Part shown: piece after piece, positions 18,850-53,846 of the stretch | Layout of the letters: each line of letters opens with the position of its first letter | Numbering within the stretch: the first letter of the stretch is position 1 | Source: Asaccharospora irregularis DSM 2635 | GTDB taxonomy: Bacteria; Bacillota; Clostridia; Peptostreptococcales; Peptostreptococcaceae | Assembly: GCF_900129815.1 (NCBI RefSeq) | Contig: NZ_FQWX01000014.1 | Span: 1 to 64,000 of the forward strand | Direction: 5' to 3' | Length of the DNA: 64,000 nt | The notes under the pieces: model-generated | The model's input: the letters and a program-made list of their open reading frames with translations, nothing else | Database searches by the model: none | What the model was told of the DNA's origin: nothing | Program-made: the position numbers and the translations under genes

Positions 18850-18899
18850 TTCATGTTCCTCCATAAATTCAGTTTAACGATTGATATTCTGATGTCTGA

Positions 18900-19586
18900 C
18901 TAATTTACTCCTTTTTGAAACAAGACAGTATGAATTGTTTTTAGTATCACTTTAATGTCCAATAATAAAGAGAAATTTTGCACATAATACGCATCGTATC
19001 TAGTAGCCTGTAAAGTGTTCAAACTACTTCTTCCATATGCTTGCGCCATCCCGGTTATTCCTGGTCTAACCAATTCTCTTATTTTCATATATTGCTGGTG
19101 AATCAACTCATTTTCTGGATATTCATTATTTAACTTCTCTAATCTCAAATCAATTTCTTTACTTGGAACAGCTCTAGGTCCTACTATGCTCATATCGCCA
19201 AGTAATACATTAATTAGTTGAGGGGTTTCATCTAAGCTAGTTTTTCTCAATATCCATCCAACTCTCGTTACTCTTCTGTCTCCTTTTTCGGGTGACTTTA
19301 AGTTCCCAACTGATGAATCAACATGCATAGTCCTAAATTTATAAGTTTTAAAGTCTACACCATTTTTACCTCTTCTAATCTGTGTAAACATAATCGGTCC
19401 TTTAGAGTCAATTTTTATGCTGATAGAAATTAAAATAAAAAAGGGAACTAAAAATAGCAAGCATATACACGATATAATAAGTTCAATTAACCTTTTTACT
19501 ATTAATTGAACTCTTTGATTGTGTGATAGTATTCCAAAATCATTTAATTCAATTAAATCATCTTTTAATGTACTTATATTCATCAT
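18900..19586 (-). CDS. initiating sugar-1-phosphate transferase (undecaprenyl-phosphate)
   Basis: Starts repeat-unit assembly by moving a sugar phosphate onto undecaprenyl phosphate at the inner membrane face. 228 residues with one N-terminal membrane helix (LIELIISCICLLFLVPFFI). The bacterial sugar transferase domain shows YKFRTM, RKTSLDETPQLINVLLGDM, SIVGPR and RPGITGMAQAYGR. The length fits the short monotopic class. Its place early in the operon fits the first committed step. Confidence 0.92.
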   Translation of the reverse strand: MMNISTLKDDLIELNDFGILSHNQRVQLIVKRLIELIISCICLLFLVPFFILISISIKIDSKGPIMFTQIRRGKNGVDFKTYKFRTMHVDSSVGNLKSPEKGDRRVTRVGWILRKTSLDETPQLINVLLGDMSIVGPRAVPSKEIDLRLEKLNNEYPENELIHQQYMKIRELVRPGITGMAQAYGRSSLNTLQATRYDAYYVQNFSLLLDIKVILKTIHTVLFQKGVN

Positions 19587-19608
19587 TTCACTTCCTTCAA
19601 AAGTAATA

Positions 19609-32160: not shown

Positions 32161-32239
32161 GTAAGCTACTTATAAATATTATATTTGTATCCAATTACTT
32201 GAATACTATCTATTTCTATTTATAATTTAAATTACAATC

Positions 32240-32337
32240 AAAGCTTCCCTTCGCAAGCATTACCTTGAGCAGGTTGTTAGGGTTTGTAAGTTTACGGCTT
32301 TATCTCTCAGCTAGCCAATTCTAGCGCCCCTAGCTCT
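32240..32337 (-). promoter_or_regulatory. TPP riboswitch aptamer (THI element)
   Basis: On the minus strand, CTGAGAG follows the first stem, then ACCTGCTCAAGGTAATGC and GCGAAGGGAAGC. These are the signature blocks of the TPP aptamer. Closing stem P1 pairs AGAGCT (32332-32337) with AGCTTT (32240-32245). It lies upstream of thiC and controls the operon through the terminator at 32125-32160. Confidence 0.92.
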
Positions 32338-32538
32338 AACATTTATTTTCTTTTATAGGCTAAGTATATCATAGCAATTTTCCCAATACAATCAATTTTT
32401 GCATTTATTACTTTAAAGCCCAATTTCTTTACAATAATAACCTAATCCTTCTCTTATTTGAAATTAATCAAAATAAAACAATTCCTCAAATTTTTTATCC
32501 AGTGCTATACAAAGAATCAATTAAAATAAAACCTACTG

Positions 32539-36796: not shown

Positions 36797-38392
36797 CTAT
36801 CCAATATACCTTTCTAATATTACCGCCCTTATACTTTCATACTTTATTTCATCAGCAACAGCCTTTTTTATAACACCTACTTTCTCATCACCAAATCTAT
36901 TTATCGCATCTTTTATACTACTCTTTTCATTTTCACTATATAAAGATTTCAAATCTATCGCAAAGTGAACTTTGTTTCCACCTTTAATATAATCATATAC
37001 ATACCCAAGCACTGTAGATGTAGAAACTTCTATCTCATCACAAACCTCTTTTATACTCTTACCTTGATTCAATAAATCCAAAGCAATTTCATCATTTTTT
37101 CTACTATCACCGTCTAGTACAAGTTTAAGCTTTTTCTTTTCTTGCCACTCAGGAGATATATTATTTTTTTCAACATACTCTTTTATTATTTTTATTATAT
37201 CTTCACCATATTTATCAATTTTAACGTTACCTATCCCTGCAATATCTTTTAGCTTAACTTCATCTAAAGGATACCTTCCACTTATCTCTTTAAGTGTATT
37301 TAGAGTTAACACCATATATGGGAGTACTCCTTCTAACTTAGAGACTTTTAACCTGTATTCCTTTAATTTCTCATATAATTCGTAATTAGTATTAACCTCA
37401 AAAAATTCTTTATTTGTAGAGCAATTTTTAACGTTATCCTTTTTAGACTGTTTTAGCAATTCTTTTTTATTTATACCTTTTTCTTCTATGTACACCTTTA
37501 TAGTTTCTTCAAATTGTTGACAATACTTGTCGTATTTGACTTCTCCTATCCCAGCCACACTAAGCATCTCATCCTTATTGGTTGCATATATACTCGCCAT
37601 ATTTTTAAGAGTAGCATCACCAAATACCATATATGGAGCTATCTTATTTTCTCTTGCTATATTACTTCTAATCTCTACCAATCTTTCATATAATTCATTT
37701 TCTACATACATAGATTTAGTAACTTTAGATTCCTTAAATTCAACTTTTATTTCATTTTTTATTACCCTCATAGATTGTTCATTTAACTTTATAGTTGGGT
37801 AGCTTCCTCTAACACCTATATTTTCTACTACTTCTAAAAATCCGTGCGATACAAGCGTGTTTATAAAAGTCTTTAAATCCTCCGATGAGTAATTTTTCAT
37901 AATTCCATAAGTACTCAATGTGTCAAACCCCTGACTCATTACCTTTTTATTTTTAGAACCTCTTAGAACATCTATTATCATAGTTACACCGAAAGGTCTT
38001 TTCATTCTAGCTATGCAAGATATAACCTTTTGGGCATCTAAAGTTTTATCTGTTACTTCACCTTCATTTAGGCAATTACTACAATTATTACAATCTTCTT
38101 TTAGTTTATCTCCAAAATAATTTAATATACTTTTTCTATAGCAACCATTGCTATAAACTAAGTCTACCATTTGCTGAAGTTTTTTATATTGAACTATTTT
38201 TCTATCAGGGTTTTCTATTCCTACCTCTACCAAGTATTTTTGAGTATGTACATCTCCTGGTGTAAATAGAAGCACACATTCGCTAGGCTCTCCATCTCTT
38301 CCAGCTCTACCTATTTCTTGATAATAATTTTCTATACTCTGTGGCATATTATAGTGTATAACCCATCTAATATTAGGCTTATCTATACCCAT
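36797..38392 (-). pseudogene. recQ: host recQ, C-terminal part (separated from its start by the mobile element)
   Basis: The downstream half (531 codons) of a RecQ helicase starts inside motif V (GMGIDKPNIRWVIHYNMPQSIENYY). It has zinc cysteines CYRKSILNYFGDKLKEDCNNCSNC, an RQC domain, two HRDC domains and a HTH_40 C-terminus. The first half lies 14.6 kb away at 52962-53846 and joins in frame to it across the duplicated 9-bp core. As it stands it has an ATG but no ribosome binding site. It is about 75 percent identical, by eye, to the intact recQ copy next to it. Confidence 0.92.
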
Positions 38393-38397
38393 ACCGA
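38389..38397. repeat. left 9-bp junction core of the mobile element
   Basis: On the minus strand it reads TCGGTATGG, identical to the copy at 52973-52981. The left flank continues as host recQ (GGTATAGATAAG on the minus strand) and the right flank is element sequence. Strand exchange should fall inside these 9 bp. Confidence 0.85.
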
Positions 38398-38430
38398 GTG
38401 TTGTGTCTTAAATTTTTATATTATTTAATT

Positions 38431-38493
38431 TTATAAACAAAATACAGAAATAAAATTAATAAAATATATCACTAAATATTGATTTAATAGGGG
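38431..38493. repeat. left 63-bp inverted repeat of the element
   Basis: It is the reverse complement of 52751-52813 with 59 of 63 positions the same and no gaps. It begins TTATAAACAAAATACAGAAA and includes one copy of the 12-mer ATAAACAAAATA at 38433-38444. It starts 34 bp from the left core and ends just before the recQ stop. It likely binds the recombinases. Confidence 0.85.
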
Positions 38494-38519
38494 CTTCCTA
38501 AGTAATTAATATTTCTTAA

Positions 38520-40988
38520 TTACTTATCATTTAACAGTCCTTCTAGTATTACAGCTCTTATATTCTCATATTTAATATAATCAGGGAGAACCTTTTTTAT
38601 AGCTCCTATTTTTTCATATCCAAATTTATCTATTGCATCTTTTATCATATCTTTATCATTTTCACTATACAATGCTTTTAAATTAATATTGAAATTTATA
38701 TCATTTCCATCTTTAATATAATCACATACATATCCAAGTGCTGTAGATAAAGAAACCTCAGTTTCATTACAAACTTCTTTTATATCATTGCCTTGATTTA
38801 ATAAGTCTAATACTATTTCATCAGTTTTTCGACTGTCTCCATCAAGTACAAGCTTAAGTCTTTTCTTTTCTTCCCATTTAGGTATTATATTATTTTCTTC
38901 TATGTGTCCTTTTACTATATTTATAATATCCTCACCGTATTTAGTTATTTTGACAGGTCCAATTCCCCCTATATCTTTTAACTGTTCTTCTTCTAAAGGA
39001 TATCTACCACTTATTTCTTTTAAAGTATTTGCTCCTAACACCATATAAGGTAAAGTACCTTCTAACTTAGATACACTCAACCTATAATCTTTTAGTCTTT
39101 CATACAATTTGCTATCTGTTGTAACTTCAAAATATTCATTATCTTTAGCAATAGTTCTTTTATTAGTCTCTAAAGTATTCAAAACTTCTTCTTTATTTAT
39201 ATTCTTTTCTTCTATATACTTCTGTATTATTTCCTCAAATTTATAACCATATCTTTCGTACTTTACTTCTCCTACTCCAGATATATTTAGCATTTCATTT
39301 TTAGTAACTGCATAAGTACTAGCCATATTTCTTAGGGTTGCATCTCCAAATACCATATATGGTGCTATACGATTCTCTCTAGCTATTTCACTTCTAATCC
39401 CTACTAATCTTTCATATAGTTCATTTTCCACATATCTAGACTTAGTCACTTTAGATTCTTTAAATTCAACTTTTATTTCATTCTTTATTACTCTCATAGA
39501 TTGTTCATTTAACTTTATAGTTGGATAACTGCCTCTTACTCCCATATTTTCAACAACTTCTAAAAATCCATGAGCTACAAGTGTATTTATAAAAGTTTTT
39601 AAATCTTCTGCCCCATAGTTTTTCATAATACCATAAGTAGTTAAATCATTAAATTTTTGGTCTATTACTTTTTTATTTTTAGACCCTCTCAAAACATCTA
39701 TAATCATAGTTGTACCAAAACTTCGTTTCATTCTAGCTATACAAGATATAACTTTCTGAGCATCTAATGTTTTATCTATTACTTCTCCTTCATTTAAGCA
39801 GTTACTGCAATTATCACATTTATCTTCTAACTCGTCTCCAAAGTAATTTAATATACTTTTTCGATAACACCCATTGCTATAAACTAAGTCTACCATTTGC
39901 TGAAGTTTTTTATATTGAATTCTTTTTCTTTCTGGGTTATCTATACCTACTTCTACTAAATATTTTTGAGTATGTACATCTCCTGGTGTAAATAGAAGCA
40001 CACATTCACTAGGCTCTCCATCTCTTCCAGCTCTACCTATTTCTTGATAATAGTTTTCTATACTTTGAGGCATATTGTAATGTATGACCCATCTAACATT
40101 AAATTTATCAATTCCCATTCCAAATGCATTGGTGGCTACCATTATTTTTATTTCATCATTTATAAATTTTTCTTGATTTTCTTTTCTTATTTCATTATTT
40201 AATCCAGCATGATATTTAGAAACTGAATAGTTTCTCTTAAGCAATCCTTCATATATACTTTCTACTTCTTTTCTAGTCGCTACGTATATTATTCCACTTT
40301 CATTTTTATGGTTTTCTATATAATCTAACAAGTATCTGTTTTTTGAAGAAGATTTAACTATATTTATAGATAAATTTTCCCTATCAAATCCAGTGATATA
40401 AACATCTGGTTCTTGTAAATCAAGTATACTCTTAATATCATATCTTACTTCATCACTAGCTGTTGCAGTAAATGCAGTTACTATAGGTCTTTTATTTAAT
40501 CTTTTTATAAATTGTGGTATCCTTTTATAACTTGGTCTAAAGTCATGTCCCCAACTAGAAATACAATGGGCTTCGTCTATTGCAACTTGACTTATATCTT
40601 TATTTCTTATTAAATTTATAAATTCTATACTATCAAGTCTCTCTGGAGCTACATAAAGTAGTTTATATCTATCATTTTCTATATTATCTAGTACTTGATT
40701 GTATTCATTATTAGATAAAGAACTATTTATAAGCTCTGCTTCTATTCCCATAGATTTAAGTGCATCTACTTGGTCTTTCATTAATGATATTAGTGGCGAT
40801 ATAACTATAGTTATACCATCTAAACAAAGTGCTGGAACTTGGTAACAAATTGATTTCCCTCCACCTGTTGGCATTATAGCTAGCACATCTTTTTTATTAA
40901 TTATTGAATTTATAATACTTTCTTGACCATTTCTAAAACTTGTATATCCATAGTATTTAGATAGTATGTCTAAAGGTTTTATGTTCAT
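38520..40988 (-). CDS. recQ: complete RecQ helicase carried by the element
   Basis: 822 residues. It has a P-loop TGGGKS at 41-46, DEAH at 138-141, FTATAS, motif V GMGIDK, motif VI QEIGRAGRDG, zinc cysteines (CYRKSILNYFGDELEDKCDNCSNC), RQC, two HRDC domains and a HTH_40 tail. It is a 3'-5' DNA helicase for replication-fork repair. It is intact and in the same direction as the host copy that the element breaks. Its codons over the insertion site differ from the host copy at several synonymous bases. A hairpin overlapping its stop codon (AAGTAATTAA/TTAATTACTT) may end the transcript. Confidence 0.95.
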   Translation of the reverse strand: MNIKPLDILSKYYGYTSFRNGQESIINSIINKKDVLAIMPTGGGKSICYQVPALCLDGITIVISPLISLMKDQVDALKSMGIEAELINSSLSNNEYNQVLDNIENDRYKLLYVAPERLDSIEFINLIRNKDISQVAIDEAHCISSWGHDFRPSYKRIPQFIKRLNKRPIVTAFTATASDEVRYDIKSILDLQEPDVYITGFDRENLSINIVKSSSKNRYLLDYIENHKNESGIIYVATRKEVESIYEGLLKRNYSVSKYHAGLNNEIRKENQEKFINDEIKIMVATNAFGMGIDKFNVRWVIHYNMPQSIENYYQEIGRAGRDGEPSECVLLFTPGDVHTQKYLVEVGIDNPERKRIQYKKLQQMVDLVYSNGCYRKSILNYFGDELEDKCDNCSNCLNEGEVIDKTLDAQKVISCIARMKRSFGTTMIIDVLRGSKNKKVIDQKFNDLTTYGIMKNYGAEDLKTFINTLVAHGFLEVVENMGVRGSYPTIKLNEQSMRVIKNEIKVEFKESKVTKSRYVENELYERLVGIRSEIARENRIAPYMVFGDATLRNMASTYAVTKNEMLNISGVGEVKYERYGYKFEEIIQKYIEEKNINKEEVLNTLETNKRTIAKDNEYFEVTTDSKLYERLKDYRLSVSKLEGTLPYMVLGANTLKEISGRYPLEEEQLKDIGGIGPVKITKYGEDIINIVKGHIEENNIIPKWEEKKRLKLVLDGDSRKTDEIVLDLLNQGNDIKEVCNETEVSLSTALGYVCDYIKDGNDINFNINLKALYSENDKDMIKDAIDKFGYEKIGAIKKVLPDYIKYENIRAVILEGLLNDK

Positions 40989-41183
40989 TTATACTCTCCT
41001 TCAAATTATTGTTACCTTAAATAATAATATTCTAATTTTAAAACTTATACCTATTTATATTATCATAATTCACTTTATTTATAATACTTATTAATTAAAT
41101 AAATTCTAGCTAAAATATGAAGTTTAGTTATTTTATGTAATTACACTTATAATAAAAATATATATATTATATTAGACATAATA

Positions 41184-41236
41184 AATATACCGCAAATGCG
41201 ATGAATTTATAAATTCCACCACACTTGCGGTATATT
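41184..41236 (-). terminator. terminator after the ABC permease genes
   Basis: A perfect 12-bp stem (AATATACCGCAA and its complement) with a 29-nt loop lies just beyond the stop of the small permease gene. The trailing T run is moderate. Confidence 0.65.
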
Positions 41237-41239
41237 AGT

Positions 41240-41857
41240 TTACTTTTTTCTTCTATAAGAAATCCCAACTATTATCATTAATGCTCCTGCAACTAATAAA
41301 TATTTTTTATCTAAGACATTTCCTTCCATCATTGAAAACAAATAAAAGTTTCCTAAATATTTTTTCCCTGCACCGTAACATAAAATATAATATAATACAG
41401 GAATCATATATCCTACTGCTATATTATCAACTATAGAGTATGCTAAAATACCTAAGCCACCAAGGAAAATACAAGTTGATATAGTCCCATAAAAATATTG
41501 CATAAAATCGAATGTGCAATTTCCTTTTTTAAGAAAAACTAAGAATCCTAACACTATAATTATTAGGCATACTATTGCTTCAACTATTCTTATTAAATAA
41601 TTAATCGTTATAGATTCTTTTTTAGACTTTACCAAATCCCTTATATCCTTATCTTGGTCTGGAATGAATAGTGGAACTAATAATATCATTCCGAATAATG
41701 ATATATACATATCTAATATTTTAGCTGTATTTAAACTATCTAAATTTTTTAAGCCCATAATTAGCGGAGATATTAAACATAAACCAATTACAACAATTAT
41801 ATGGGGAAATAAGTTAAACTTTAAATTAACTTTAGCTATTTTTAAGTATCTTTCCAT
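41240..41857 (-). CDS. ABC exporter membrane subunit, small
   Basis: 205 residues with six membrane helices and a tail of basic residues. It overlaps the larger permease gene by 26 nt. I recognise no motif beyond the ABC-2-like membrane layout; it is called as a permease from its place in the operon with an ATPase. Confidence 0.7.
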   Translation of the reverse strand: MERYLKIAKVNLKFNLFPHIIVVIGLCLISPLIMGLKNLDSLNTAKILDMYISLFGMILLVPLFIPDQDKDIRDLVKSKKESITINYLIRIVEAIVCLIIIVLGFLVFLKKGNCTFDFMQYFYGTISTCIFLGGLGILAYSIVDNIAVGYMIPVLYYILCYGAGKKYLGNFYLFSMMEGNVLDKKYLLVAGALMIIVGISYRRKK

Positions 41858-43043
41858 TTAAATTAAATTTCCCCTTTCTTTTTATATCATATACGAATAT
41901 GTTCATCACTATTAATACGATTCCAACTACACTATAAAAAACTCTATTTATAACAAGCTCATTAAAAATTCTACTATATATATCATAAGCTCCAAATGTA
42001 TTAAATCTAGGAACTAAGTTCATACCCACATTCCCAACTAAATTAAAAGCACCTAATAATATACTTACAAACCACCATATACCTTGAACTAAAATTGCAA
42101 TTGGTCCATTTGTAAGTTCTGTTAATAAAAATCCCATAGAAACTGTAACTAATACAGTAGGCATAAGCCATCCAAATATAACTTTTATAAAAGCAAAATA
42201 ATCTGCACTTATTTCATTACTATTAGCTGAATAAATTGACTGTAATGTTGGTGTAATACTTATTAAAATTAATGGTAATATTATCATAGATATAATCGCT
42301 AAATATCTTGATAATATAATTACAGTTGAGGAACACTTCTTAGCAAAAATAACTTGCTCTGACTTTGCTCTCTTATCTTTTAATACTCTAGTTACTGCTA
42401 AAAACATTGGAAGTATTGCTAAAACAATTCCCATATAATCACTAAATAATCTTGCATAAGCTCTTGATATCTTATCATTATTTATAATACTTTCATAATC
42501 TTTAAGTGCATCATCATAGGTTCTCTCAACCCTTGCATTTACAGATAATCTTTTTGAATTATAAAAACTTCCACCACCAAGAACATCATCTATTTTATCC
42601 ATCTCTTTTGAAAACTCTTGAAAACTAATATTATCTTTTACCTTAACAACATCAACTAATACATCTTCTTTTGTACTATTGTAATCTTTAATCTGCTTTA
42701 TTAACTGTTCCTTATTTAAACCTGTTAGGCTCTCAAAAATTTTATAAATTTTTGACATATCTTCATCGCTAAGCTTTACTTCTTTATAAAATCCTATCGG
42801 GTATGTTGGAAAGGAATTTGATTCTAGTTCAAAAGCTAGTTTATCAATGGTTGATTGTATTATTACACTTTCACCAGCATCATGTTTAAATCCATAACTT
42901 TCTTGACCTTGTACAGGTTTTGCAATCCCTGGAAAGCTTCCCATTTGAGTAATAAAAAATATAACTATACAAGCTAAGAATATATAATAAGTAATACTTT
43001 TTAGTGTTTCTTTACATTCTTTCAAAAACAAAGTCTTAAACAT
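41832..43043 (-). CDS. ABC exporter membrane subunit, large
   Basis: 403 residues. One N-terminal helix (ITYYIFLACIVIFFITQMG) is followed by an outer domain of about 150 residues and then five or six helices in the C-terminal half, the ABC-2 permease layout. Its start overlaps the ATPase stop by 1 nt. It works with the ATPase and the small subunit, probably to export or detoxify a peptide or lipid-linked compound. Confidence 0.8.
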   Translation of the reverse strand: MFKTLFLKECKETLKSITYYIFLACIVIFFITQMGSFPGIAKPVQGQESYGFKHDAGESVIIQSTIDKLAFELESNSFPTYPIGFYKEVKLSDEDMSKIYKIFESLTGLNKEQLIKQIKDYNSTKEDVLVDVVKVKDNISFQEFSKEMDKIDDVLGGGSFYNSKRLSVNARVERTYDDALKDYESIINNDKISRAYARLFSDYMGIVLAILPMFLAVTRVLKDKRAKSEQVIFAKKCSSTVIILSRYLAIISMIILPLILISITPTLQSIYSANSNEISADYFAFIKVIFGWLMPTVLVTVSMGFLLTELTNGPIAILVQGIWWFVSILLGAFNLVGNVGMNLVPRFNTFGAYDIYSRIFNELVINRVFYSVVGIVLIVMNIFVYDIKRKGKFNLNGKILKNS

Positions 43044-43927
43044 TATCTTACACCTCCACTTGTATGCATAAGATACATATATGCATCTTCAACATTTGGA
43101 AGTGTTGTTTCAGCACCATTAAAAAGTTCAGACTCACTCTTAGCAATGAATCTTATTTTAGCCTCTGTTGACGTCATAAGAACATTAGTAACTATGTATT
43201 TCTTTTTTATATCTTCAATTTCGACTCTTGATATCTTAGCTTCATATATATTACCATTAGCTTTATCTAAAAGTTCTGTAACTGTACCTTTAAATATTAT
43301 TTTTCCTTCATCCATTACGGCAATATTTTCACAAGTAGATTCTATATCTCCAACTATATGAGTTGATAATATAACGATTCTATCTTCTGCTATTTCAGAA
43401 AGTAAATTACGAAAACGGACTCTCTCCTCTGGGTCTAATCCTGCTGTAGGTTCATCTACTATTAATACCTTAGGATTATGAAGTATAGCTTGTGCAATTC
43501 CAAGCCTTCTTCTCATACCTCCTGACATAGCTTTTACCTTAATCTTCATATTATTATTTAAATTTACTTTAGCCAAGAGCTCTGGTATTCTTTCTTTTCT
43601 AGTTTTTTTATCTAAGCCTGATAGTACACCCAAGTAGTCCATAGCTTCATAAGCTGACATATTACTATACATTGAAAAATCTTGAGGTAGGTATCCTATC
43701 ATTTCTCTTATCTTACTAGCTTCATTTACATTTATACCACATACTGTAATTTCACCTGAACTTAAAGAAAGTAATGTTGCTATTGATTTCATTAAAGTAG
43801 TTTTTCCTGCCCCATTTCTTCCTAATAAACCAAACATTCCTTTTTCTATATCTAAGTTGATATTATTCAATGCTCGTTTTTTCCCATAAAATTTACTTAC
43901 ATCTTTTAAAATAACATTTGTATCCAT
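43043..43927 (-). CDS. ABC exporter ATPase
   Basis: 294 residues. A P-loop GRNGAGKTT lies at about residues 37-45, Q-loop PQDFSMY, signature SGGMRRRLGIAQA, Walker B VLIVDEPTAGLDPEER and switch His in LSTHIVGD. The C-terminal 70 residues are the extension typical of CcmA/BcrA-type exporters. It drives the two permeases that follow. The nearby two-component system suggests it is induced by its substrate. Confidence 0.9.
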   Translation of the reverse strand: MDTNVILKDVSKFYGKKRALNNINLDIEKGMFGLLGRNGAGKTTLMKSIATLLSLSSGEITVCGINVNEASKIREMIGYLPQDFSMYSNMSAYEAMDYLGVLSGLDKKTRKERIPELLAKVNLNNNMKIKVKAMSGGMRRRLGIAQAILHNPKVLIVDEPTAGLDPEERVRFRNLLSEIAEDRIVILSTHIVGDIESTCENIAVMDEGKIIFKGTVTELLDKANGNIYEAKISRVEIEDIKKKYIVTNVLMTSTEAKIRFIAKSESELFNGAETTLPNVEDAYMYLMHTSGGVR

Positions 43928-44047
43928 ACCATTCTCCTATCTCTTATTTATTAATATAAGTAAATTTTAACTACTAAATATCTATTTTTTATCTACATTT
44001 TAAAAAAATCTACTACAATTTAGCAATATATAGGTGAAGACTTTTTA

Positions 44048-45235
44048 TTACCAATGACTTTGTCCGTTGCTAAAAAAACTTGCACATACAATAGCACCAC
44101 CGCTTGTACTATTATTTAAAGTCAATTTTCCTCCATGCTTTTCACATAATGATTTACATATAGTAAGCCCTATACCAAAGTGTCCATCTATTCCAGCTCG
44201 ACTGCTATAATAAGGCTTTGATGCTGAATATATTTCCTTCTTTGAAAAACCTTCACCATTATCTCTTATATAAATATATATAACATCATTTTCCCACTCC
44301 AAAATAATATCAACTTTATTTTTTGTAAATGACAAAGCATTAGATAATAAATTATCTACAACTTGTAAAATAATACTTTCATCAAAATATCCTTTATTCT
44401 CTTTTAATTTGCTATATATATTAATTTCAATGTTGTTACTAGCTGAAATTACGTTTATAACTTCTTCTATCTTTTTTTCTAAAATATTGAACTCTTTAAG
44501 CTTTGTCTTTACTTCTATAGCTCCAATATCCTGTATATCCTTCATAGTTTCTGAGAAGTTCTTTAATCTGGTTAATTGAGACTGTATTAAATTAAGATTT
44601 TCTAATAGTTTTTCTTCTGTTATCTTACCTTGTGGGTAGTACTTAACTAACATATCTGTATAGCCTCCTATAACAGTAAGAGGGGTTCTAATATCATGAG
44701 CAAAAGCTGAATTTAATTGTCTTTGTCCCTCCATAAGATTCCATACATTTTCATTATTATTAATAAGTTGCACTCTCATTTTATCAAAAGCTTCGCATAT
44801 TTCCCCCAACTCATCTCCACTATTATAAATACATGAAAAACTTAAATCATTCCGACTTATATGCTTGGCTTCTTCTCTTAAAATCTCTATCGGAATTTTT
44901 ATTTTATTTTTATAAAACATATTAGATGTGATTATTATTGCTATGATAGAGTAAACAACTATTGAAAGCTCTTTAATAATGTCTGAACCATATAAAATTA
45001 CTTTATCTATTGTATCTAACTCAACAAGTTCCTCTATTGGTATATAGGTATTTACATCAAGAGAATACTTTGTATATACTAACCCTTTCCACCCATGACA
45101 AAAAACTACTGTTGATATATATATAATTATAACTGCAATAATAGCAATAAATATGTATAAACTCATTGTTTTTCTTAAAGATTGTGCTTTTATCTTATCT
45201 TTTAATCTTAAGAGTTGTTCATCTATCCAATCCAT
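44048..45235 (-). CDS. sensor histidine kinase
   Basis: 395 residues. There are two membrane helices (IFIAIIAVIIIYISTVVF; IVVYSIIAIIITSNMFY) around a short outer loop, then HAMP, the H-box SAFAHDIRTPLTV, N-box and G-boxes (DNGEGFSKKE, HFGIGLTICKSLCEKHGG). It overlaps the response regulator by 13 nt and likely controls the ABC genes just downstream. The short sensor suggests it detects ligand through the membrane or the transporter. Confidence 0.92.
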   Translation of the reverse strand: MDWIDEQLLRLKDKIKAQSLRKTMSLYIFIAIIAVIIIYISTVVFCHGWKGLVYTKYSLDVNTYIPIEELVELDTIDKVILYGSDIIKELSIVVYSIIAIIITSNMFYKNKIKIPIEILREEAKHISRNDLSFSCIYNSGDELGEICEAFDKMRVQLINNNENVWNLMEGQRQLNSAFAHDIRTPLTVIGGYTDMLVKYYPQGKITEEKLLENLNLIQSQLTRLKNFSETMKDIQDIGAIEVKTKLKEFNILEKKIEEVINVISASNNIEINIYSKLKENKGYFDESIILQVVDNLLSNALSFTKNKVDIILEWENDVIYIYIRDNGEGFSKKEIYSASKPYYSSRAGIDGHFGIGLTICKSLCEKHGGKLTLNNSTSGGAIVCASFFSNGQSHW

Positions 45236-45897
45236 TTATAACCTACTCCCCAAACTGTTTCTATAATAGTATCATCAGTGTATTTACCAAGTTTCATGCG
45301 TATTCGTCTAATATGTTCAGTTATAATGCTACTATCACCCTCTTTATCAAATCCCCAAAGTTTTTCGTAAATATCTTCTTTCGAAAAAATTCGTCCACTA
45401 TTCATACTCAAATTTTCTAGAATATCAAATTCTGTTTTAGTAAGATTTATTTCATTTTCTCTACAAAAAGCTTTTCTATCAGAATAATTAATAACTATTT
45501 CTTTTGAAAATTTCACTTTTTCTTTTGTAGTTTTACGCTCTTCACGCCTTAAATGAGCTTTAACCCTAGCATTTAATTCTTCTATACTGAATGGTTTTAA
45601 AATGTAATCATCCCCACCTACCATCAGCCCTTTGATTCTATCACTTTCTTCAACTTTTGCTGTTAAAAATACGATAGGACAACTGACATAATTTCTTATT
45701 TTAGTGCATACCTCTATTCCATCCATTCCTGGCATATTAATATCTAATAATATAATATCTGGATTTATATTTATCTTTTTTAAAGTATCGTCTCCACTAT
45801 AAGCTGTGTAAACTAAAAAATCTTCAAGTTCAAAAAAATCTTTCAAAAGTGATACAATACTAACTTCATCATCTATGACAAGCATCTTATATTTCAT
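45223..45897 (-). CDS. OmpR-family response regulator
   Basis: 224 residues. The receiver domain shows VIDDEVS, the phosphoacceptor Asp in ILLDINMPGMDG and TAKVEESDRI. The C-terminal winged helix spans about residues 130-224 (INLTKTEFDILENL, IRRIRMKLG, ETVWGVGYKW). It is the first cargo gene after the recombinase operon, and would activate the ABC exporter operon. Confidence 0.93.
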   Translation of the reverse strand: MKYKMLVIDDEVSIVSLLKDFFELEDFLVYTAYSGDDTLKKININPDIILLDINMPGMDGIEVCTKIRNYVSCPIVFLTAKVEESDRIKGLMVGGDDYILKPFSIEELNARVKAHLRREERKTTKEKVKFSKEIVINYSDRKAFCRENEINLTKTEFDILENLSMNSGRIFSKEDIYEKLWGFDKEGDSSIITEHIRRIRMKLGKYTDDTIIETVWGVGYKWIG

Positions 45898-46135
45898 ATA
45901 CTATACTCCTACTCCCTTTATTTTTATATAATAATTAAAACTTTATAATTTTGTATTTACAGTAAATTTTAACCTATATTTCTCTATAATTTCTCTACTT
46001 ACCTACCTAACATAAAGTAAAAAAGTCATCAACCATTAATTTGCATTATATAACAATTGTTCTTAAATAGAGTTAATTTAGCCTTCAAATTTATATTTAC
46101 GTATATATAATGAGTAATAAACTAGGTTTTTGCAC

Positions 46136-46921
46136 TTACAATAAATCATCAAATTCATCTATAGCATTTTGAATTTTTTTATCCTCTTTAATTTTTCTAT
46201 CATTAAATGAGACAATCTTATTTTTATTAGTATCATTTACATTTGATGTGTTATTTTCAGTAGCATCATAGTCTATATCATCAAAAACTTCGTCTACTAT
46301 TTCATTGCTTAATCCAAAGTCACATTTTTGTAAAATTATCATTAAGTTTTCCTCATCAATCCCATTTAACAGATTGTTTGATTTAAGATATTCCCTCATT
46401 TTAATTTGTTCATCTAAAACCTTAAATTTATTTAGTCTCGCATTTATTTTTGATAACTGCTTATTTTTTTCACTTATATCTTTACTCTTTTCTTTGAGCT
46501 TCTTATTCTCATCTTTAAGTTTTTCTATTTCTAGCTTATATTGATTTTCTTTATGTTTCATTTCTAAAACTTGCTGATTTAACTCACTATGCCTATCTGC
46601 AAAACGTCTTAAAACAACCTTTTGAGTCTTTTCATCTTTTTTATATGTTTCTAAGAATTTATCTGAATTAAATTCAATCAAAGTATTTATATTACTTGTA
46701 TCTCCACTTTGATTTATATTATTAGTTTGCTCTATTAGTTCTTTAATTTCCTTATTTCTTGTAAAATGAAAATATCTAATATCTTCATAACCAAGTTCAT
46801 TTACTGCAAAATTTGCAATATCTGTAGCTGTAACTTGACCAAAAACTGTATTTCTATCAAAATATGTGTCAACTATATTTTCTAACATTTCAGTTGTGAA
46901 TCTTTTTTTTCTCCCTGCCAT
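46136..46921 (-). CDS. TnpC-like accessory protein
   Basis: 261 residues. The N-terminal MAGRKKRFTTEMLENIVDTYF suggests DNA binding. Residues about 100-170 are a long coiled coil (rich in Glu, Lys and Gln). The tail is acidic and ends DDLL. It lies 2 nt after the TnpB-like gene. Tn554 TnpC is shorter (about 125 residues) and has a similar basic-plus-coil design; this size is closer to the DUF6262 proteins found with such recombinases. It probably guides orientation or efficiency of integration. Confidence 0.65.
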   Translation of the reverse strand: MAGRKKRFTTEMLENIVDTYFDRNTVFGQVTATDIANFAVNELGYEDIRYFHFTRNKEIKELIEQTNNINQSGDTSNINTLIEFNSDKFLETYKKDEKTQKVVLRRFADRHSELNQQVLEMKHKENQYKLEIEKLKDENKKLKEKSKDISEKNKQLSKINARLNKFKVLDEQIKMREYLKSNNLLNGIDEENLMIILQKCDFGLSNEIVDEVFDDIDYDATENNTSNVNDTNKNKIVSFNDRKIKEDKKIQNAIDEFDDLL

Positions 46922-46923
46922 AA

Positions 46924-48780
46924 TTATCCCTCCACATCTATGTTATTATCAATAACATAATCACATAACATCTCAGCCTTGCTCTTAGCTTTACTATGGA
47001 TTTTGTTTATAGATGTTTTATACGCATCTTTATATCCAATTAATGTGTTTCTATTTTTCATAAGATAATTTAATGTCTTTATTTCTGAGCTAATTTCTTC
47101 ATCTATTTCCCTTAATTCTTTATCTATTTTTGAAAGTTCCCCCTCTTTAGGTATAAAATAAGGACATCTTCTATGATTTCCTCTTAGTATCTTACATGGC
47201 ATCATATCATCTTTTTCATAAGTACAATATCCCTCACTTAATTCAATTTTTCTTTTATCTTTTTTATTTCTTTTATTTTTTATAATTTTATACCTTTGAT
47301 TTGCTGAGCCATTTTTATCATCAATAATATTAGATAAGTTCATATCTAATATTTCATTTTTTTGCTTAGAATTCTTTTTTAAAGCCATTTGTTTTGCCAT
47401 CGAAATAGTATAACATTTTATAAATAATTCACTATGGTCTGAGTATGAAAATGATGTATTAATATTTTTATGACCCACTACTCTTTGTATAGTTGATGCT
47501 TCAAATCCCATATATATCATATTTAATATTGCAAAATGTCTTGTATCCATTAACTGAATATACTCTATCTGTTCTTCTTGTAAAAACACACTTCCTATAT
47601 CTTCACTTTCATAGATTTCTTTTGTTTTGGGTATTATATTTACATTGTATTTTCCAATTACAATTTCTATTAAGAATTGTTTTCTCAAAATATTAAGCAG
47701 ATTTGAAGAAAAAAATTCTCTTTCATCCCTTATTGTATTTTTATAATCTCTAAACTGCTTATAACTTCTATATGAAAATAAAAACTTCCTTTCTATTGGT
47801 TTTCCTAAACCATCAACATAAAATTTGTCTAATTTATCATATTTATCAACTATAGATTTATATTCATTTATCAATTGAACAATCTCATCACTTATTGGAA
47901 ATTCTTGTTCTGTATAGCACTCTTCAAAACTATGATTGAAAATATCATTAGATATTCCACCCTTCAAGTTATTTCTATAAAACTTAAATATATTTTTATT
48001 GTCATATCTTCTAATACAATTCAAAGGAATAAGCACCACTTCATGAGCTCTCAGTGGTATTATAGATGTTATTTTCCACCATAGTATAATAGGAAAAAAT
48101 CTTTCTCTTTCAATTCCCTCAGCATTTTGGATAAAATCTTCTATTATATCATTAAATTTAAACATAGATTCAAAACTTGGAAGTGCTCTTCTTTCTTTCT
48201 TTTTTACACTTTTCTCTTTACTATATTCATCACTTGCAAACTTTAAATAACAATCTTCATAATCTTCTAATATTGAACTGTTATTGAAATACATTTCAAT
48301 ATATGCAAAATATTCTGAAATCATAAAATATGATGATAAAAAACTTCTACAATTCCTTAGTTCTTCATTTAAAACATCCTTAATTAGAACTTCATTTTTA
48401 AATAGTTTTTTCAATTGATTAACAAAAATAACTATTCTTTGTCCAGTATTAAAATCTAACATATATAAGATATAGCTCTTAATAGATAATAAAAACTGCT
48501 CATAATTAATATCTTTGAATATTCCTTTATTTATTAGTTTTTTAAACTCTACTTCACTAAATTTAAACTTTACATTACTAACATTTACATCACCCGTGAT
48601 TATAGTCCAATTACAGTCATTGATGCTATCATTTTGAATAATCTTAGCATTTTTATGTTTTTTCCATAACTCCAAATATTTATCGTAATCTCTATAATTA
48701 AATTCAACTAAATCTACTTTTTTTGCTGGAGTATTTCCTATGTTCTTCAATACAGCAATCATATTACCCTCCCGTATCAA
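46924..48780 (-). CDS. TnpB-like tyrosine recombinase
   Basis: 618 residues, close to Tn554 TnpB (630). Catalytic motifs: Arg in SIIPLRAHEVVLIP; DTRHFAILNMIYMG as box II; VGHKNINTSFSYSDH, where the Tyr is the likely nucleophile. A cysteine cluster (EGYCTYEK, MPCKIL, RRCPYF) lies near the C-terminus, as in TnpB relatives. It is in one operon with the neighbours (12 and 2 nt gaps). Confidence 0.85.
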   Translation of the reverse strand: MIREGNMIAVLKNIGNTPAKKVDLVEFNYRDYDKYLELWKKHKNAKIIQNDSINDCNWTIITGDVNVSNVKFKFSEVEFKKLINKGIFKDINYEQFLLSIKSYILYMLDFNTGQRIVIFVNQLKKLFKNEVLIKDVLNEELRNCRSFLSSYFMISEYFAYIEMYFNNSSILEDYEDCYLKFASDEYSKEKSVKKKERRALPSFESMFKFNDIIEDFIQNAEGIERERFFPIILWWKITSIIPLRAHEVVLIPLNCIRRYDNKNIFKFYRNNLKGGISNDIFNHSFEECYTEQEFPISDEIVQLINEYKSIVDKYDKLDKFYVDGLGKPIERKFLFSYRSYKQFRDYKNTIRDEREFFSSNLLNILRKQFLIEIVIGKYNVNIIPKTKEIYESEDIGSVFLQEEQIEYIQLMDTRHFAILNMIYMGFEASTIQRVVGHKNINTSFSYSDHSELFIKCYTISMAKQMALKKNSKQKNEILDMNLSNIIDDKNGSANQRYKIIKNKRNKKDKRKIELSEGYCTYEKDDMMPCKILRGNHRRCPYFIPKEGELSKIDKELREIDEEISSEIKTLNYLMKNRNTLIGYKDAYKTSINKIHSKAKSKAEMLCDYVIDNNIDVEG

Positions 48781-48792
48781 GCTAAATTTCTA

Positions 48793-51351
48793 TTAATTCA
48801 TAAGTTTATAATCTAATTTTATAGACTGACTTTCTCTTAATTTATCAATCTTATTTTTCATACCAACTACATCTACAAATACATTAACATTACTTTTCCC
48901 TAAAACATTTTGTGCTTCCTTTAAAATAGGCATATATGTTTTAAAAATCAATGTACTATACATGTATTGCTCATATTCATTATCTATTAAATATAATTTA
49001 TTAATAGCATCATTCATTAAATCATTTAGTTCATATAGAAAATACATTTCTTCAATTATAAAAGGGCATCCTATACAAGTATCAAAGTTATCATTAATAC
49101 AATTTATTCCCTCATTTAATTCTATTAAATTATTTGGTATCGCATCATCTACATTACTACATTCTATGACATTCAACATAGCTTTTAATATACATCTAGT
49201 ATGATTGTGCTTACCATGTGTATTTCCATATGCCAACTCAACTAATATTTCTTTTATTAAATTTGGAGTTGAGACCATCCTCGATATCATTTCTGTAACT
49301 TTTTTTCTTTGTATATAAATATTTTTCATAGTATATTCAAGCTCATATGGAGTCAATGATATATCATCCATAAGCTCTGTTTTCGTACTGTCATCATTTT
49401 CTATAAAATTATTATCTATAATCTTCAAAGCCTGAAATTTTTCAAATGCAAAGCTACCTCTATTAAACAACGTCGCGACTGCATTTTCTATACTATTATC
49501 TACTTTCCTCGTTTCATATATAGTAGTTGTTTCTGACATACCCTTTGAATCAACACTATAACCTCTCAAAATAGATATTATGTGCGTAGCAAAATTATCT
49601 CCTTTTTCTTCACTATAATTATGAATGTAGTTATTATAGCTTTTATTGGCTCTTCTGTTTGAAAATTTTTCTTCCCCAAGTATATCAATGATTTGTTTTC
49701 CAAATAAATCATCATAATAACTTTTATTGCCTATAAATCCTGATGATATTATACTATCTGCCTTAAGATTCTTTTTATTTAGTCTATGTGTTATCTGTCT
49801 ATGTGCTTCACAAATTGCAAATAGTAACCCTAAACTTCTAACTGTAAGCCTTCCAACTTCCATAACTAAATACCCATTATTTTTAGTTGATTTCATAGAG
49901 TATCCATCTATTTTTCTTTTTACATCTTCTGTAATTATCATTCCCATTTCTTCAGTAAATTCATTTCCTTCTGATAGCCACTTCAATAACTCTTCTGCCT
50001 CAAATCCAATATTATTAAGATTAGGACTTGGTATATCACTTATAGCTCCTCTTCTCCATATGGTTACATAATGTAGATACATATATAGCCAAACTTGAGC
50101 TTGCCCTCTGCTTTCAATAGCTCTGTCTATATATTCTTTATCACTAGTACTTGTGTGTAAAAGTCTGAACAGTTCTAAAAATTGCTCTTGAGTATAACTT
50201 AATACTTCTTGTGATTCATCTATAAAACTATTTTTAGGTAATTTATAAATAACTCTATTTTTAAAAGATTTATACTTTATTAAGTAGTTATAAAATGAAA
50301 CAAATTCAACTTTATCATTCTGAGTATACTCTTCATTAGATATTATATTTTCTATGATTTTTTCTACTAACTCTTCACTGTATTTATAAAAATCCATATT
50401 TAAAGTTTTATTTAATATTTCTTTAACTCTATGAAAACTCATAGCTTTACCTTTAATTGATTGCTTAGATTTTATATCATTAAATCTATCAATTACAAAT
50501 AACTCATAAATTTGCATAGTATCCTCAAGTTTTTCTTTTGTTTTTATATTCTCTGTTAGAATTCTATAAATCTCTAAACCATTTTTTGCTGACTTAATCC
50601 TAGTTTGTATATTTAATTCATCAAATATTATATGGGCATCTTTTTTTAACATAAGCCTTCTTTTTCCCATAAATGGATGTCTTTCTATCAACTCTATATT
50701 ATTCTTTAAAATCCTATCTCTAATAGCATCTTCTTGAACGTCCACTCTATCTACAACATCTTTAATAAAATCCTCAACTGGAATGGATATTTCCTTCAAT
50801 TTGTTGTATTTTTCAACTTCTTCTATTTTTAAATATAATTTTTTACCATATCTATATACAAAATCAAACGCTGGAAGACGTTCATGCGTAATTTCTCTTT
50901 CCCCTAAAATTTCTGCTGTTTTAACTAAATCAATATACTTATTCTCATCTATAATATCCTTTGGAGCTCCGTCTAGAATTATATTTTCTATTTTTTCAAA
51001 ATCCTTTAAGTTATATCTTAATTGCTTTGTAAATGGTTGTTGCTCATATGATAGAGATTCAATACCATGCTTTTTAAAAACATTTCTTATATGTGTTGTT
51101 GTAAATTTAAAATATTTTGAAAGTTCATCTACAAATCCTAGTTCTGATTCCCATTTAAGCAATTGCTCAAAGTCTGATTTTAAGTAATATTCAATCTTAC
51201 CATATTTGTAACATTGTATATATTGCTTTATTCTATTAATAAAAAATATTGTGTATCCTTTTTCTTTCAATTCTTTAGCAGTATAATAATCCTCTATATC
51301 ATCAATGTTATTATTAAGTATAATTTCTTTAGCATTTTTATTTCTTATCAT
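48793..51351 (-). CDS. large recombinase-associated protein, 852 residues
   Basis: Middle gene of the recombinase operon, 4 nt after the TnpA-like gene. Its long N-terminal half looks like a DNA-binding region with repeated helix-turn-helix-like blocks. HYVTIWRRGAISDIPSP and ATHIISILRGYSVDSKG resemble degraded tyrosine-recombinase boxes, but a clear nucleophile is lacking. A CX2C pair (DTCIGCPF) is near the end, as in TnpB-type proteins. It may be an inactive recombinase or architectural subunit. No comparable protein exists in classic Tn554. Confidence 0.6.
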   Translation of the reverse strand: MIRNKNAKEIILNNNIDDIEDYYTAKELKEKGYTIFFINRIKQYIQCYKYGKIEYYLKSDFEQLLKWESELGFVDELSKYFKFTTTHIRNVFKKHGIESLSYEQQPFTKQLRYNLKDFEKIENIILDGAPKDIIDENKYIDLVKTAEILGEREITHERLPAFDFVYRYGKKLYLKIEEVEKYNKLKEISIPVEDFIKDVVDRVDVQEDAIRDRILKNNIELIERHPFMGKRRLMLKKDAHIIFDELNIQTRIKSAKNGLEIYRILTENIKTKEKLEDTMQIYELFVIDRFNDIKSKQSIKGKAMSFHRVKEILNKTLNMDFYKYSEELVEKIIENIISNEEYTQNDKVEFVSFYNYLIKYKSFKNRVIYKLPKNSFIDESQEVLSYTQEQFLELFRLLHTSTSDKEYIDRAIESRGQAQVWLYMYLHYVTIWRRGAISDIPSPNLNNIGFEAEELLKWLSEGNEFTEEMGMIITEDVKRKIDGYSMKSTKNNGYLVMEVGRLTVRSLGLLFAICEAHRQITHRLNKKNLKADSIISSGFIGNKSYYDDLFGKQIIDILGEEKFSNRRANKSYNNYIHNYSEEKGDNFATHIISILRGYSVDSKGMSETTTIYETRKVDNSIENAVATLFNRGSFAFEKFQALKIIDNNFIENDDSTKTELMDDISLTPYELEYTMKNIYIQRKKVTEMISRMVSTPNLIKEILVELAYGNTHGKHNHTRCILKAMLNVIECSNVDDAIPNNLIELNEGINCINDNFDTCIGCPFIIEEMYFLYELNDLMNDAINKLYLIDNEYEQYMYSTLIFKTYMPILKEAQNVLGKSNVNVFVDVVGMKNKIDKLRESQSIKLDYKLMN

Positions 51352-51355
51352 TTTT

Positions 51356-52696
51356 TCACCCTCTTATAAATGATGTTTTTGTTATTTGCTCATAACTCTC
51401 TATAAAACTATTTTGTATTTCCTTTATATACTCTACTCTTCCTCTCGATTTTGATAGATATGTCAATGCAGTTGTTAAACTAGAGTCACCTCTATACATA
51501 GCTAAAGTATGTGCGTCTTCTCTTCTAGCTACATAATCAGTAAAGAAATATCTTAATGCATGTGTATTCATCTTTGACTCTAGTAGCATTTCAAAATCAA
51601 CTGATGCTTGAATATTACCATTATCAGCCATATATCCTAGTCTTTCAATTAATCTAGTTATAAGTTTGTTATATCTATCCGCATATCTATCAGCCTTTAA
51701 AGCCTTCCGATTCTTCCCAAAGAATAATGCTCCATATTCATCTCCATCTAACCCTTTTTGGCGTAGCAACTTCATATGTTCTGTATATAAACGATTTATA
51801 TATGGTAAAAATGCCTCATACACTAGTTGTACTCTAGATACTTTTATTTCACCCGTTCTAGCTCCATCATTTCTTAGCATATGTTCTCTTGTTAAATCAA
51901 TACAAAAACTAATAGACTCTCCAAGTGGTCTCCTATTTACTATTCTACTTCTACTCATTTGACAAACCTCTCCACATCTTAACCCAGCAAAACTTTGTAA
52001 TGCTATTCCAAATGCAAGCATTGGGTCATATTGCTTCGCTACTTCTATAAGAGTATATACCATTAACTCGTCAGGTGATTCTATCTTTTTCTTTATCTCT
52101 TTATGTGGGTATTCTACTGTAAACAATGATTTTAAATATTTAACTTGCCTAAATCCTTCTCTCATGTCTATTCTATTTTTATTTTTATAGATTTTAGTTT
52201 CATAATTAAAGTCACTTTTTTTGATATGATTTAATTTGTAATTAGGTTGATAAAATAGCCAATTATAGAAACTAGTTAATGCATACTCTGCCTTTTCTAT
52301 CACTTCATCAGTTTTCACTTCCATACTTCTTGATGTAGGACCTTTTCTTAAATCTCCATATGAAAATTTATTTAAAAATTCTTCACCTATCTTCACAGTT
52401 ATATCTTCAATAGAATTTAATGTAACCTCTCTATCAAAAAAGATATAATTTAAAAATAGCACTATTGTAGTTCCATAATTATTTTTATTTGTGTGTATTG
52501 AATTGTTTAATCTCTTTTTATGAAAAAAGAAATCTGTATACTCTGAGATTTGAAATTCATTTGTATTAGAATTGCTTAATGTTATAAAGTTATAATTTTT
52601 AACTAAACCATTTTTAATAATAGTAGCTTCTCTTTGACCATATCTCCATTCCATTCTGTTACTATCTACTAATTTTATATCTTCTATATATTGCAT
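51356..52696 (-). CDS. TnpA-like tyrosine recombinase
   Basis: 446 residues. Box I Arg is in LQSFAGLRCGEVCQMSRS; box II is NTHALRYFFTDYVAR (HxxR); MYRGDSSLTTALTYLSKS places the catalytic Tyr. First gene of the recombinase operon, with TAAGGAG before the ATG. Tn554 TnpA is about 360 residues; this one has a longer N-terminus that could hold the arm-binding domain. Confidence 0.88.
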   Translation of the reverse strand: MQYIEDIKLVDSNRMEWRYGQREATIIKNGLVKNYNFITLSNSNTNEFQISEYTDFFFHKKRLNNSIHTNKNNYGTTIVLFLNYIFFDREVTLNSIEDITVKIGEEFLNKFSYGDLRKGPTSRSMEVKTDEVIEKAEYALTSFYNWLFYQPNYKLNHIKKSDFNYETKIYKNKNRIDMREGFRQVKYLKSLFTVEYPHKEIKKKIESPDELMVYTLIEVAKQYDPMLAFGIALQSFAGLRCGEVCQMSRSRIVNRRPLGESISFCIDLTREHMLRNDGARTGEIKVSRVQLVYEAFLPYINRLYTEHMKLLRQKGLDGDEYGALFFGKNRKALKADRYADRYNKLITRLIERLGYMADNGNIQASVDFEMLLESKMNTHALRYFFTDYVARREDAHTLAMYRGDSSLTTALTYLSKSRGRVEYIKEIQNSFIESYEQITKTSFIRG

Positions 52697-52710
52697 TTCT
52701 TTAGTTCTCC

Positions 52711-52743
52711 TTAATTATCATTTTCTATTAATAACAATTTCAT
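52711..52743 (-). CDS. possible 10-residue leader peptide before the recombinase operon
   Basis: ATG to TAA encodes MKLLLIENDN. An AGGGGAG site sits 7 nt before it, inside the right inverted repeat flank, and its stop is part of the ribosome binding site of the TnpA-like gene (TAAGGAG). It could couple translation to the next gene. It may be chance. Confidence 0.3.
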   Translation of the reverse strand: MKLLLIENDN

Positions 52744-52750
52744 TTAAACT

Positions 52751-52813
52751 CCCCTATTGACTCAATATTTAGTGATATATTTTATTAATTCTATTTCTGT
52801 ATTTCGTTTATAA
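52751..52813. repeat. right 63-bp inverted repeat of the element
   Basis: It pairs with 38431-38493 at 59 of 63 positions. Here the unit lies 160 bp from the right core, leaving an extra arm with three further relatives of the 12-mer at 52853-52864, 52876-52887 and 52948-52959. The asymmetric arms recall recombinase attachment sites. Confidence 0.85.
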
Positions 52814-52961
52814 GTAAATTATAGAACACTTTTATTTATTTTTCTATTAGTTTATTTTGTTTTTATTTATTTTTTATAAACAAAATACTAAACATGTTCA
52901 TATTACTAATATATAATATAATATAACCATATCTATTTTATATATTCTATTTTGTTTATTA

Positions 52962-53846
52962 TTAACAACATTCCATACCGAAGGCATTTGTTGCCACCAT
53001 TATTTTTATTTCATCATTTATAAATTTTTCTTGATTTTCTTTTCTTATTTCATTACTAAGACCTGCATGGTATTTGGAGACAGAATAACCCTTTTTAAAT
53101 AACCCATCATATATACTTTCTACGTCTTTTCTGGTAGCAGCATATACTATTCCACTTTCGTTTTTATGATTTTCTATATAATCTAATAAGTATCTATTTT
53201 TTGAAGAAGATTTCACTATATTCATAGATAAATTTTCTCTATCAAATCCCGTTATATAAACCTCTGGTTCACTTAAATTAAGTAAATTTATTATATCATA
53301 CCTAACTTCATCTGATGCAGTTGCTGTAAATGCAGTAACTATCGGTTTTTTTTCTAAACTTTTGATAAATAAAGGAATCTTTCTATAGCTAGATCTAAAA
53401 TCATGCCCCCACTGAGAAACACAATGTGCCTCATCCACGGCAATTTGGCTTATACTTTTATTTTTTATTAAATTTACAAACTCTAAGTTATCTAATCTTT
53501 CTGGTGCTATATATAATATTTTATATTTATCTTTATTTATATCTACTAGGATATTATCTAGTTGTTCAGAACTTAAGGAACTATTTATAAATACGGCATT
53601 AATACCCATAGTATTTAAAGAATCTACCTGATCCTTCATAAGTGATATTAACGGTGAAATTACTATTGTCAATCCATCTAACATAAGAGATGGTATCTGA
53701 TAGCATATAGACTTCCCTCCGCCAGTTGGCATTATTGCAACTACATCTTTTTTGTTTAATATCGACTTTATAATTTCTTCTTGTCCCTTTCTAAAACTTG
53801 TGTATCCATAGTATTTTGATAATATATCTAAAGCTTTTAAATTCAT
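52962..53846 (-). pseudogene. recQ: host recQ, N-terminal part
   Basis: The upstream part of the broken RecQ: start MNLKALDILSKYYGYTSFRK with GGAGAA upstream, P-loop MPTGGGKS, DEAHCVSQWGHDFR, and ending VATNAFGM followed by three foreign codons and a stop at the junction. Removing the element and the extra core copy gives FGMGIDKP in frame with 36797-38392, restoring a RecQ of about 821 residues. Alone it contains RecA domain 1 and most of domain 2 but no zinc or RQC part. Confidence 0.93.
52973..52981. repeat. right 9-bp junction core
   Basis: TCGGTATGG on the minus strand, same as 38389-38397. On its right is host recQ; on its left is element DNA. Confidence 0.85.

Follow-up and report, generated by a model that had tools for sequence, protein, structure and literature searches.

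Introduction

Integrases often limit the damage caused by their insertion by choosing tRNA genes or the ends of genes. For the Tn554 family of transposons, we know of no member that carries a copy of its target. Among the described systems, SE elements such as SE-6283 (strand-biased circularizing integrative elements, known from Vibrio) are characterized by an operon for a recombinase, Tfp, a large recombinase and Srap as well as by a 6-bp crossover (PMC9345347, PMC10214605), and, in the accessible part of the account, elements resembling SE-6283 sit in bcp and carry bcp themselves, the one of pSEA1 being excepted (PMC9345347). Further traits of SE elements are a second protein that combines a recombinase fold with an incomplete R-H-R-Y set, circle joints in which imperfect inverted repeats flank a 6-bp spacer, and a strand-biased formation of circles that leaves no empty site. 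The Tfp-like gene has no counterpart in Tn554, as far as the available portion of the description goes (PMC10214605). Tn552-II of Staphylococcus aureus contains a "target-gene-like" (tgl) gene, and the authors suggest in the consulted section that tgl may provide rescue (PMC12486829). Beside two GInts, a duplicated reductase gene was described, the accessible text making no mention of a target copy inside the element (PMC5385486).

The carriage of a target copy is thus already known from two single precedents, SE-6283 with bcp and Tn552-II with tgl. A literature survey by title and start of abstract, comprising few subscription papers, yielded no recQ-targeted element of this kind and no account of the matching of target and copy as a general trait. 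New are the target recQ, a range of nine targeted genes within the Bacillota (or eight, with the two kinds of Y-family polymerase merged) and copies moving with their elements. The starting point was a window of 64,000 nucleotides, i.e., the whole stretch analysed, from Asaccharospora irregularis DSM 2635 (contig NZ_FQWX01000014.1).

Insertion into Motif V of recQ

Read on the minus strand of the window, the recQ frame extends from 53846 across the core TCGGTATGG, which ends at 52973, and is closed by a stop no more than 11 bases further on; it is taken up again at a second core (38397-38389) and ends at 36797. This nonamer occurs at these two positions and nowhere else in the window (52973-52981 and 38389-38397, minus strand), with a chance expectation of 0.06, and the 14,575 bp between the two cores (38398-52972) represent the insert. 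The left att core (52973-52981) was assigned by the 9-mer search and core comparison and the right one (38389-38397) by the 9-mer search, with the crossover perhaps lying within the GGTATG of the core. The N-terminal half of the host gene (52973-53846, minus strand) has 291 codons, covers positions 3-286 of TIGR01389 and ends with the FGM of motif V, and the C-terminal half (36797-38397, minus strand) forms an ORF of 531 aa starting with the ATG from the core. Fusion of both halves via one core results in 821 residues free of internal stops, with TNAFGMGIDKP across the join. The original prediction of a host recQ in two parts about 14.6 kb apart, with the same sequence at both junctions, FGMGIDKP in frame after joining and an insertion in motif V by an element with tyrosine recombinases, is therefore well supported.

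The comparison with orthologues of relatives, which had been proposed together with this prediction, revealed an unbroken recQ in G006, with up135, an AGCS symporter and a permease-like gene upstream in the same order as in the window. The objection that the halves are separate old genes fails accordingly, as relatives feature a single gene. An assembly error, the second objection, is judged unlikely because this kind of layout is found again in independent assemblies, among them a closed Paenibacillus lautus plasmid and the complete chromosome of Intestinibacter bartlettii (L058/L107; genome G008, CP102273), which belongs to the Peptostreptococcaceae and thus to the same family as the genome of the window.

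A recQ survey of 147 genomes including the window's own, with at most six candidates scored per genome, gave a match at E<=1e-100 in 72 of them. In every matching genome of the same family, recQ occupies a single place, the exception being the window's genome with three (one intact gene and two halves). At 297 columns invariant in relatives, the host halves show 7 changes and the recQ carried by the insert shows 1; relatives scored likewise, with close kin left out, range from 0 to 20 changes of 297-317. Due to these few changes, the host halves are regarded as not badly decayed and the carried recQ as well conserved.

A Complete recQ within the Element

Originally, recQ was taken as simply disrupted. 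The gene is indeed split, but a complete second recQ in the insert had been overlooked (38520-40988, minus strand; 822 aa), which scores 817 bits for TIGR01389 against a cut-off of 640 and contains all of the DEAD, Helicase_C, RecQ zinc, RQC and HRDC domains. Its protein is 78% identical to the N-terminal and 77% to the C-terminal half of the host RecQ, the corresponding DNA identities being 78 and 79%. Between the end of the gene and the right core lie 122 bp. The gene is enclosed by subterminal inverted repeats, and this enclosure assigns it to the element. Shortly upstream of its ATG, AAGGAG provides a good ribosome-binding site; promoter-like sites around the gene are not in excess (14 versus a shuffle mean of 23.4). 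The tree calculated with 29 relatives does not group the carried with the host recQ and places the carried gene beside G006/G027 with a weak support of 0.555.

Operon, Ends and Cargo

All parts of the element described here lie on the minus strand. As predicted, the insert contains inverted repeats, which are subterminal: the left one (52751-52832) pairs with the right one (38410-38493; about 84 bp) over 84 columns with 87% identity and an E value of 2.5e-22, obtained in a whole-genome search that also returned six short matches at E 9.5e-4. The pairing of the termini was analysed over 11 positions with an assumed 6-bp spacer and 200 random windows as reference. With 8/11, the window's own termini are at the random level (mean 8.15), and only its subterminal repeats are strong. 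Full pairing (11/11) was found in L060, L083, L079 and L075, the maximum of the random windows being 10; L081 reaches 10 and L058, L059, L065 and L076 reach 9, values also attained by random windows. The window, L058 and L059 have the same 6-bp core at both ends; in the other loci compared, the two cores differ, those of L060 in the way expected were one core carried along from the donor site.

The operon encodes proteins of 446, 852, 618 and 261 aa, an order found similarly in relatives, and none of the four had a match in PHROGs. The first is a tnpA/intA-like tyrosine recombinase (51356-52696; 446 aa), which keeps the R-H-R-Y set (R240, H379, R382 and Y413, invariant in an alignment of five sequences) and weakly matches profiles of XerA/Int chains (best E 0.0056). 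The second is a Tfp-like large protein (48793-51351; 852 aa) with a likeness to XerH in its predicted structure. Residues 271-623 of the model align with XerH over 266 residues at Z 9.1 and an rmsd of 8.7, but helical chains without a relationship reach Z values of up to 8.1; HxxR is absent among the invariant columns of the alignment of this protein, and Foldseek gave zero matches at E<=0.001. The model, of modest confidence (pLDDT 65), is consistent with a recombinase-like middle domain. The third is a tnpB/intB-like large tyrosine recombinase with a TTG start (46924-48780; 618 aa), whose match to PF00589 (E 8.8e-4) is under the cut-off; R244, R414, H437 and Y446 are invariant in five sequences, with no histidine three residues before R414. 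The fourth, a putative TnpC/Srap-like small protein (46136-46921; 261 aa) lacking a family match, is assigned by its operon position and size only. Further cargo comprises a response regulator (45223-45897; PF00072, PF00486), a histidine kinase (44048-45235; PF00512, PF02518) and an ABC transporter ATPase (43043-43927; PF00005). A probable ABC permease (41832-43043) and a second probable permease (41240-41857) lack a family match and were recognized by position and, by eye, by their hydrophobic sequence.

In comparison with the known systems, the window element agrees with SE-6283 in the four-gene order, in the intragenic insertion and in the carriage of a homologue of the target, the proteins being compared by description as given in the accessible sources. 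It differs in that SE-6283 was found, according to the same sources, in hosts of the Gammaproteobacteria and targets bcp, whereas the target here is recQ (PMC9345347, PMC10214605). Tn552-II likewise combines a tnp operon with a target-like gene; still, the consulted part of its description names three genes (tnpABC), a 7-bp att, another, yolD-like target and a beta-lactamase as cargo (PMC12486829). Three recombinase-like genes and a gene for a small protein are also present in GInts, and these site-specific islands with cargo are described for Firmicutes, too (PMC5385486). However, the gene order differs, and GinC, the third protein, has no full motif (PMC10214605); besides, GInts insert at gene ends or in intergenic regions (PMC5385486), unlike the element inside recQ, all as stated in the available text of these papers. 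The label "Tn554-like" holds at the superfamily level only. Tn554, whose target is radC instead of recQ, likewise inserts site-specifically by means of tyrosine recombinases and has a TnpC-type protein, but plain membership in its family is ruled out by the extra 852-aa gene between the recombinase genes. As this gene lacks a counterpart in Tn554 in the accessible portion of the source (PMC10214605), the layout is that of a four-gene SE/GInt element.

Targets and Copies in Related Elements

Searching species genomes with a tnpB alignment led to 49 loci (L062-L110), in genera that, judged by the record titles, we take to be Bacillota; together with the window, 50 loci were considered. A complete gene of the broken target's family is carried in 17 of them: recQ in the window, radA in L062 and L063, dinB in L064, a DNA ligase gene in L071, rarA in L075, L076, L085, L097 and L109, a Y-family polymerase gene in L079, L080, L083 and L084, ywbE in L081, a yfbR-like gene in L089 and a DUF1002 gene in L099. 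Two further loci (L106, L107) have a split DUF1002 copy interrupted by about 427 bp (L058 3147-3572; also L059), the break in the copies of I. bartlettii and Clostridium being situated within about two residues of the break position of the host gene. This stretch matched no Rfam family in I. bartlettii (L058). A probable copy is present in two loci, L067 (topB) and L087 (Y-polymerase), the latter copy being close to another polymerase of the same genome, and L090 carries radA with its target off the contig. In seven loci, the target is split and a copy is absent from the assembled genome, namely L065 (recQ), L082, L088, L095, L096 and L101 (DUF72) and L091 (topB). The remaining 21 loci, including L068 and L108 with pieces of topB, received no call either way. 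Since L062/L063 and L106/L107 are near-duplicates, the number of independent cases is lower than 17.

The completeness of these loci varies. Both host halves and the copy are found on one contig in the window, L075, L079 (with L133), L081, L083, L106, L107 and L099, with the copy split in L106/L107 and no more than 20 residues of the host N-terminal half left at the edge of the contig in L099. In L062, L063, L076, L080 and L097, a different contig holds the far host half; L064 and L071 show a single host fragment, which in L071 is almost the whole gene minus its start. The contig of L084 does not include the host half on the tnpA side, the N-terminal half was not found for L109, and the host N-terminal part of L085 is unexpectedly situated in the interior of another contig. 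The host fragment of L089 has 73 aa and matches the copy weakly, both being YfbR-like by Pfam. The element of L075 measures about 67 kb. Outside the 50 loci, the closed P. lautus plasmid pAZOPL1 contains the host N-terminal (19858-19010) and C-terminal (9453-9052) parts and the copy (18775-17531). Viral contigs contained no relative of tnpB, and plasmids held distant relatives only (two records with tnpA, four and three with two tnpB queries).

Several neighbouring observations arose from this survey. L065, from an uncultured member of the Clostridia, represents a separate insertion into recQ (4909-5325 and 17098-18801), with the cut after motif II (DEAHCVSQ). In L083, yolD-like neighbours, recognized by eye, accompany the polymerase copy on the element (17854-19864), so that the duplicated unit seems to be a small operon and not a single gene. 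The elements of L094, L072 and L098 adjoin the C-terminal half of a thymidylate synthase gene, the C-terminal half of RtcB and the N-terminal part of a ComGA-like (T2SSE) gene, respectively. L061 (10539-14056; G013:C3) features an hflX fragment, a second hflX, an erm-like and an RlmA-like gene, all named by eye, beside related tnpB/tnpC. In a related genus (L053/L054, G017:C1), recQ is intact and a four-gene element is located outside of it, about 2 kb downstream past a RelA/SpoT-like gene.

Controls and Mobility of the Copy

The 1.2 kb adjoining tnpA matched the far side of the element at the protein level in 13 of 44 loci, or in 12 without L069, whose short and weak match was not counted as a copy. 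Control stretches further upstream gave no far-side matches (0/40 for 2-3.2 kb and 0/38 for 3.5-4.7 kb). In a cross-target test, 11 copy proteins of ten families were compared with the part downstream of tnpA in the 50 loci, up to about 10 kb past tnpB, a range that leaves out the more distant copies of L075, L076, L079 and L080; for four loci lacking a tnpA position, the start was set by hand. Matches were obtained in 18 loci, in L065 and L091 via the broken host gene alone. As expected, dinB and the Y-polymerases matched each other, and so did the rarA variants; apart from this, the gene of another target was detected in none of the elements tested.

The polymerase copies of P. sanguinis, P. 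ihumii and P. cisolokensis are 95.2-97.3% and their tnpA 93.8-99.5% identical, whereas the host halves share 43.9-58.7%. For the pair of I. bartlettii and Clostridium sp. 1001270J, the identity amounts to 100% in the DUF1002 copies, 99.8% in tnpA and 92.7 and 82.8% in the host halves. Copies are thus near-identical where the host genes have diverged, and therefore the copy travels with the element. The opposite mismatch occurs in L076 and L085, whose host rarA halves share 94 and 87% and whose copies share 41% identity; between P. lautus and P. sanguinis, tnpA is 87% and the copy 65% identical. As the polymerase copies do not form one clade either, these mismatches indicate that copies were acquired more than once. 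A single origin of all copies was considered and found unsupported for the Y-family polymerases, with three label changes, the same as for shuffled labels, and one host row being long.

Break and Probable Replacement of the Target

Taken together, an SE/GInt-type element very probably cut recQ at the FGMG codons and supplies a recQ of its own, so that the target is both broken and replaced. A four-gene element with two tyrosine recombinases, a Tfp-like and a TnpC/Srap-like protein would insert at a short core in the FGMG codons of motif V, its far end bringing a complete recQ of separate ancestry. After integration, the host would retain one full recQ gene, encoded by the element. If expressed, this gene could substitute for the broken one, and such functional rescue, suggested by the sequence, would lower the cost of insertion and make a conserved functional motif usable as a dependable att site. 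The element may move as a circle, in the manner described for SE elements and Tn552-II. Replacement is not obligatory, because in seven of the 50 loci the split target is not accompanied by a copy; a universal rescue rule is ruled out by the same loci, which represent natural controls.

More broadly, we lean slightly towards a widespread four-gene lineage of the Bacillota that breaks and replaces its targets, each sublineage having a conserved codon block as target and a matched working substitute, and whose spread swaps chromosomal recQ, rarA, radA, dinB and others for mobile alleles. Here, a conserved gene is interrupted in its middle, and the element seems to compensate for the damage with a copy that it brings along. 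If this holds, it would explain how invariant catalytic motifs can serve transposons as att sites and would open a route for the horizontal replacement of core repair genes; moreover, scoring a gene as "disrupted" need not mean that it is lost.

Among the rival readings, the best survivor, albeit an improbable one, holds that a repair gene is carried because the element's own transposition needs the enzyme, with the match to the target as a side effect. It draws on the many genes of replication or repair among targets and copies (recQ, radA, rarA, dinB, Y-family polymerase, ligase), but a needed factor should be one constant gene, whereas the visible targets are matched by a copy of their own family and of no other tested family. 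Besides, ywbE, yfbR, DUF1002 and also the bcp of SE-6283 are, to our knowledge, not transposition factors.

Less probable again is a copy acting as decoy or homology arm, in site immunity or gene conversion, instead of as a functional enzyme. In line with this, the carried recQ differs from TCGGTATGG at two of the nine core bases, and the copies of I. bartlettii and Clostridium are broken near the position of the host break. Against it stand the 17 complete copies, the single change of the window copy at the 297 invariant columns and the 38-64% protein identity of several copies to the host gene, a level that makes efficient recombination with the latter implausible. Site immunity through a recoded copy, considered separately, was not established, the other compared copies diverging over the whole gene and those of L106/L107 being split near the site. 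Least credible of all is a second recQ that arose in the host, as a common paralogue or by tandem duplication, and was trapped between the halves, a reading for which the 79% DNA identity with the host halves speaks, but which is at odds with the position of the second recQ inside the subterminal repeats and between the halves, with the one recQ place in the other matching genomes of the family, with the weakly supported separation of the two genes in the tree and with the recurrence of the layout with other genes.

Other Loci in the Window

Apart from the split recQ and its element, the window contains two further loci on the minus strand. A Gabija-type defence pair is situated at 478-3182, with GajA at 1551-3182 and GajB at 478-1554, both with strong PADLOC matches. 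A TPP riboswitch (RF00059, 65 bits) is found at 32229-32341, and the genes downstream of it resemble, by eye, thiamine synthesis genes.
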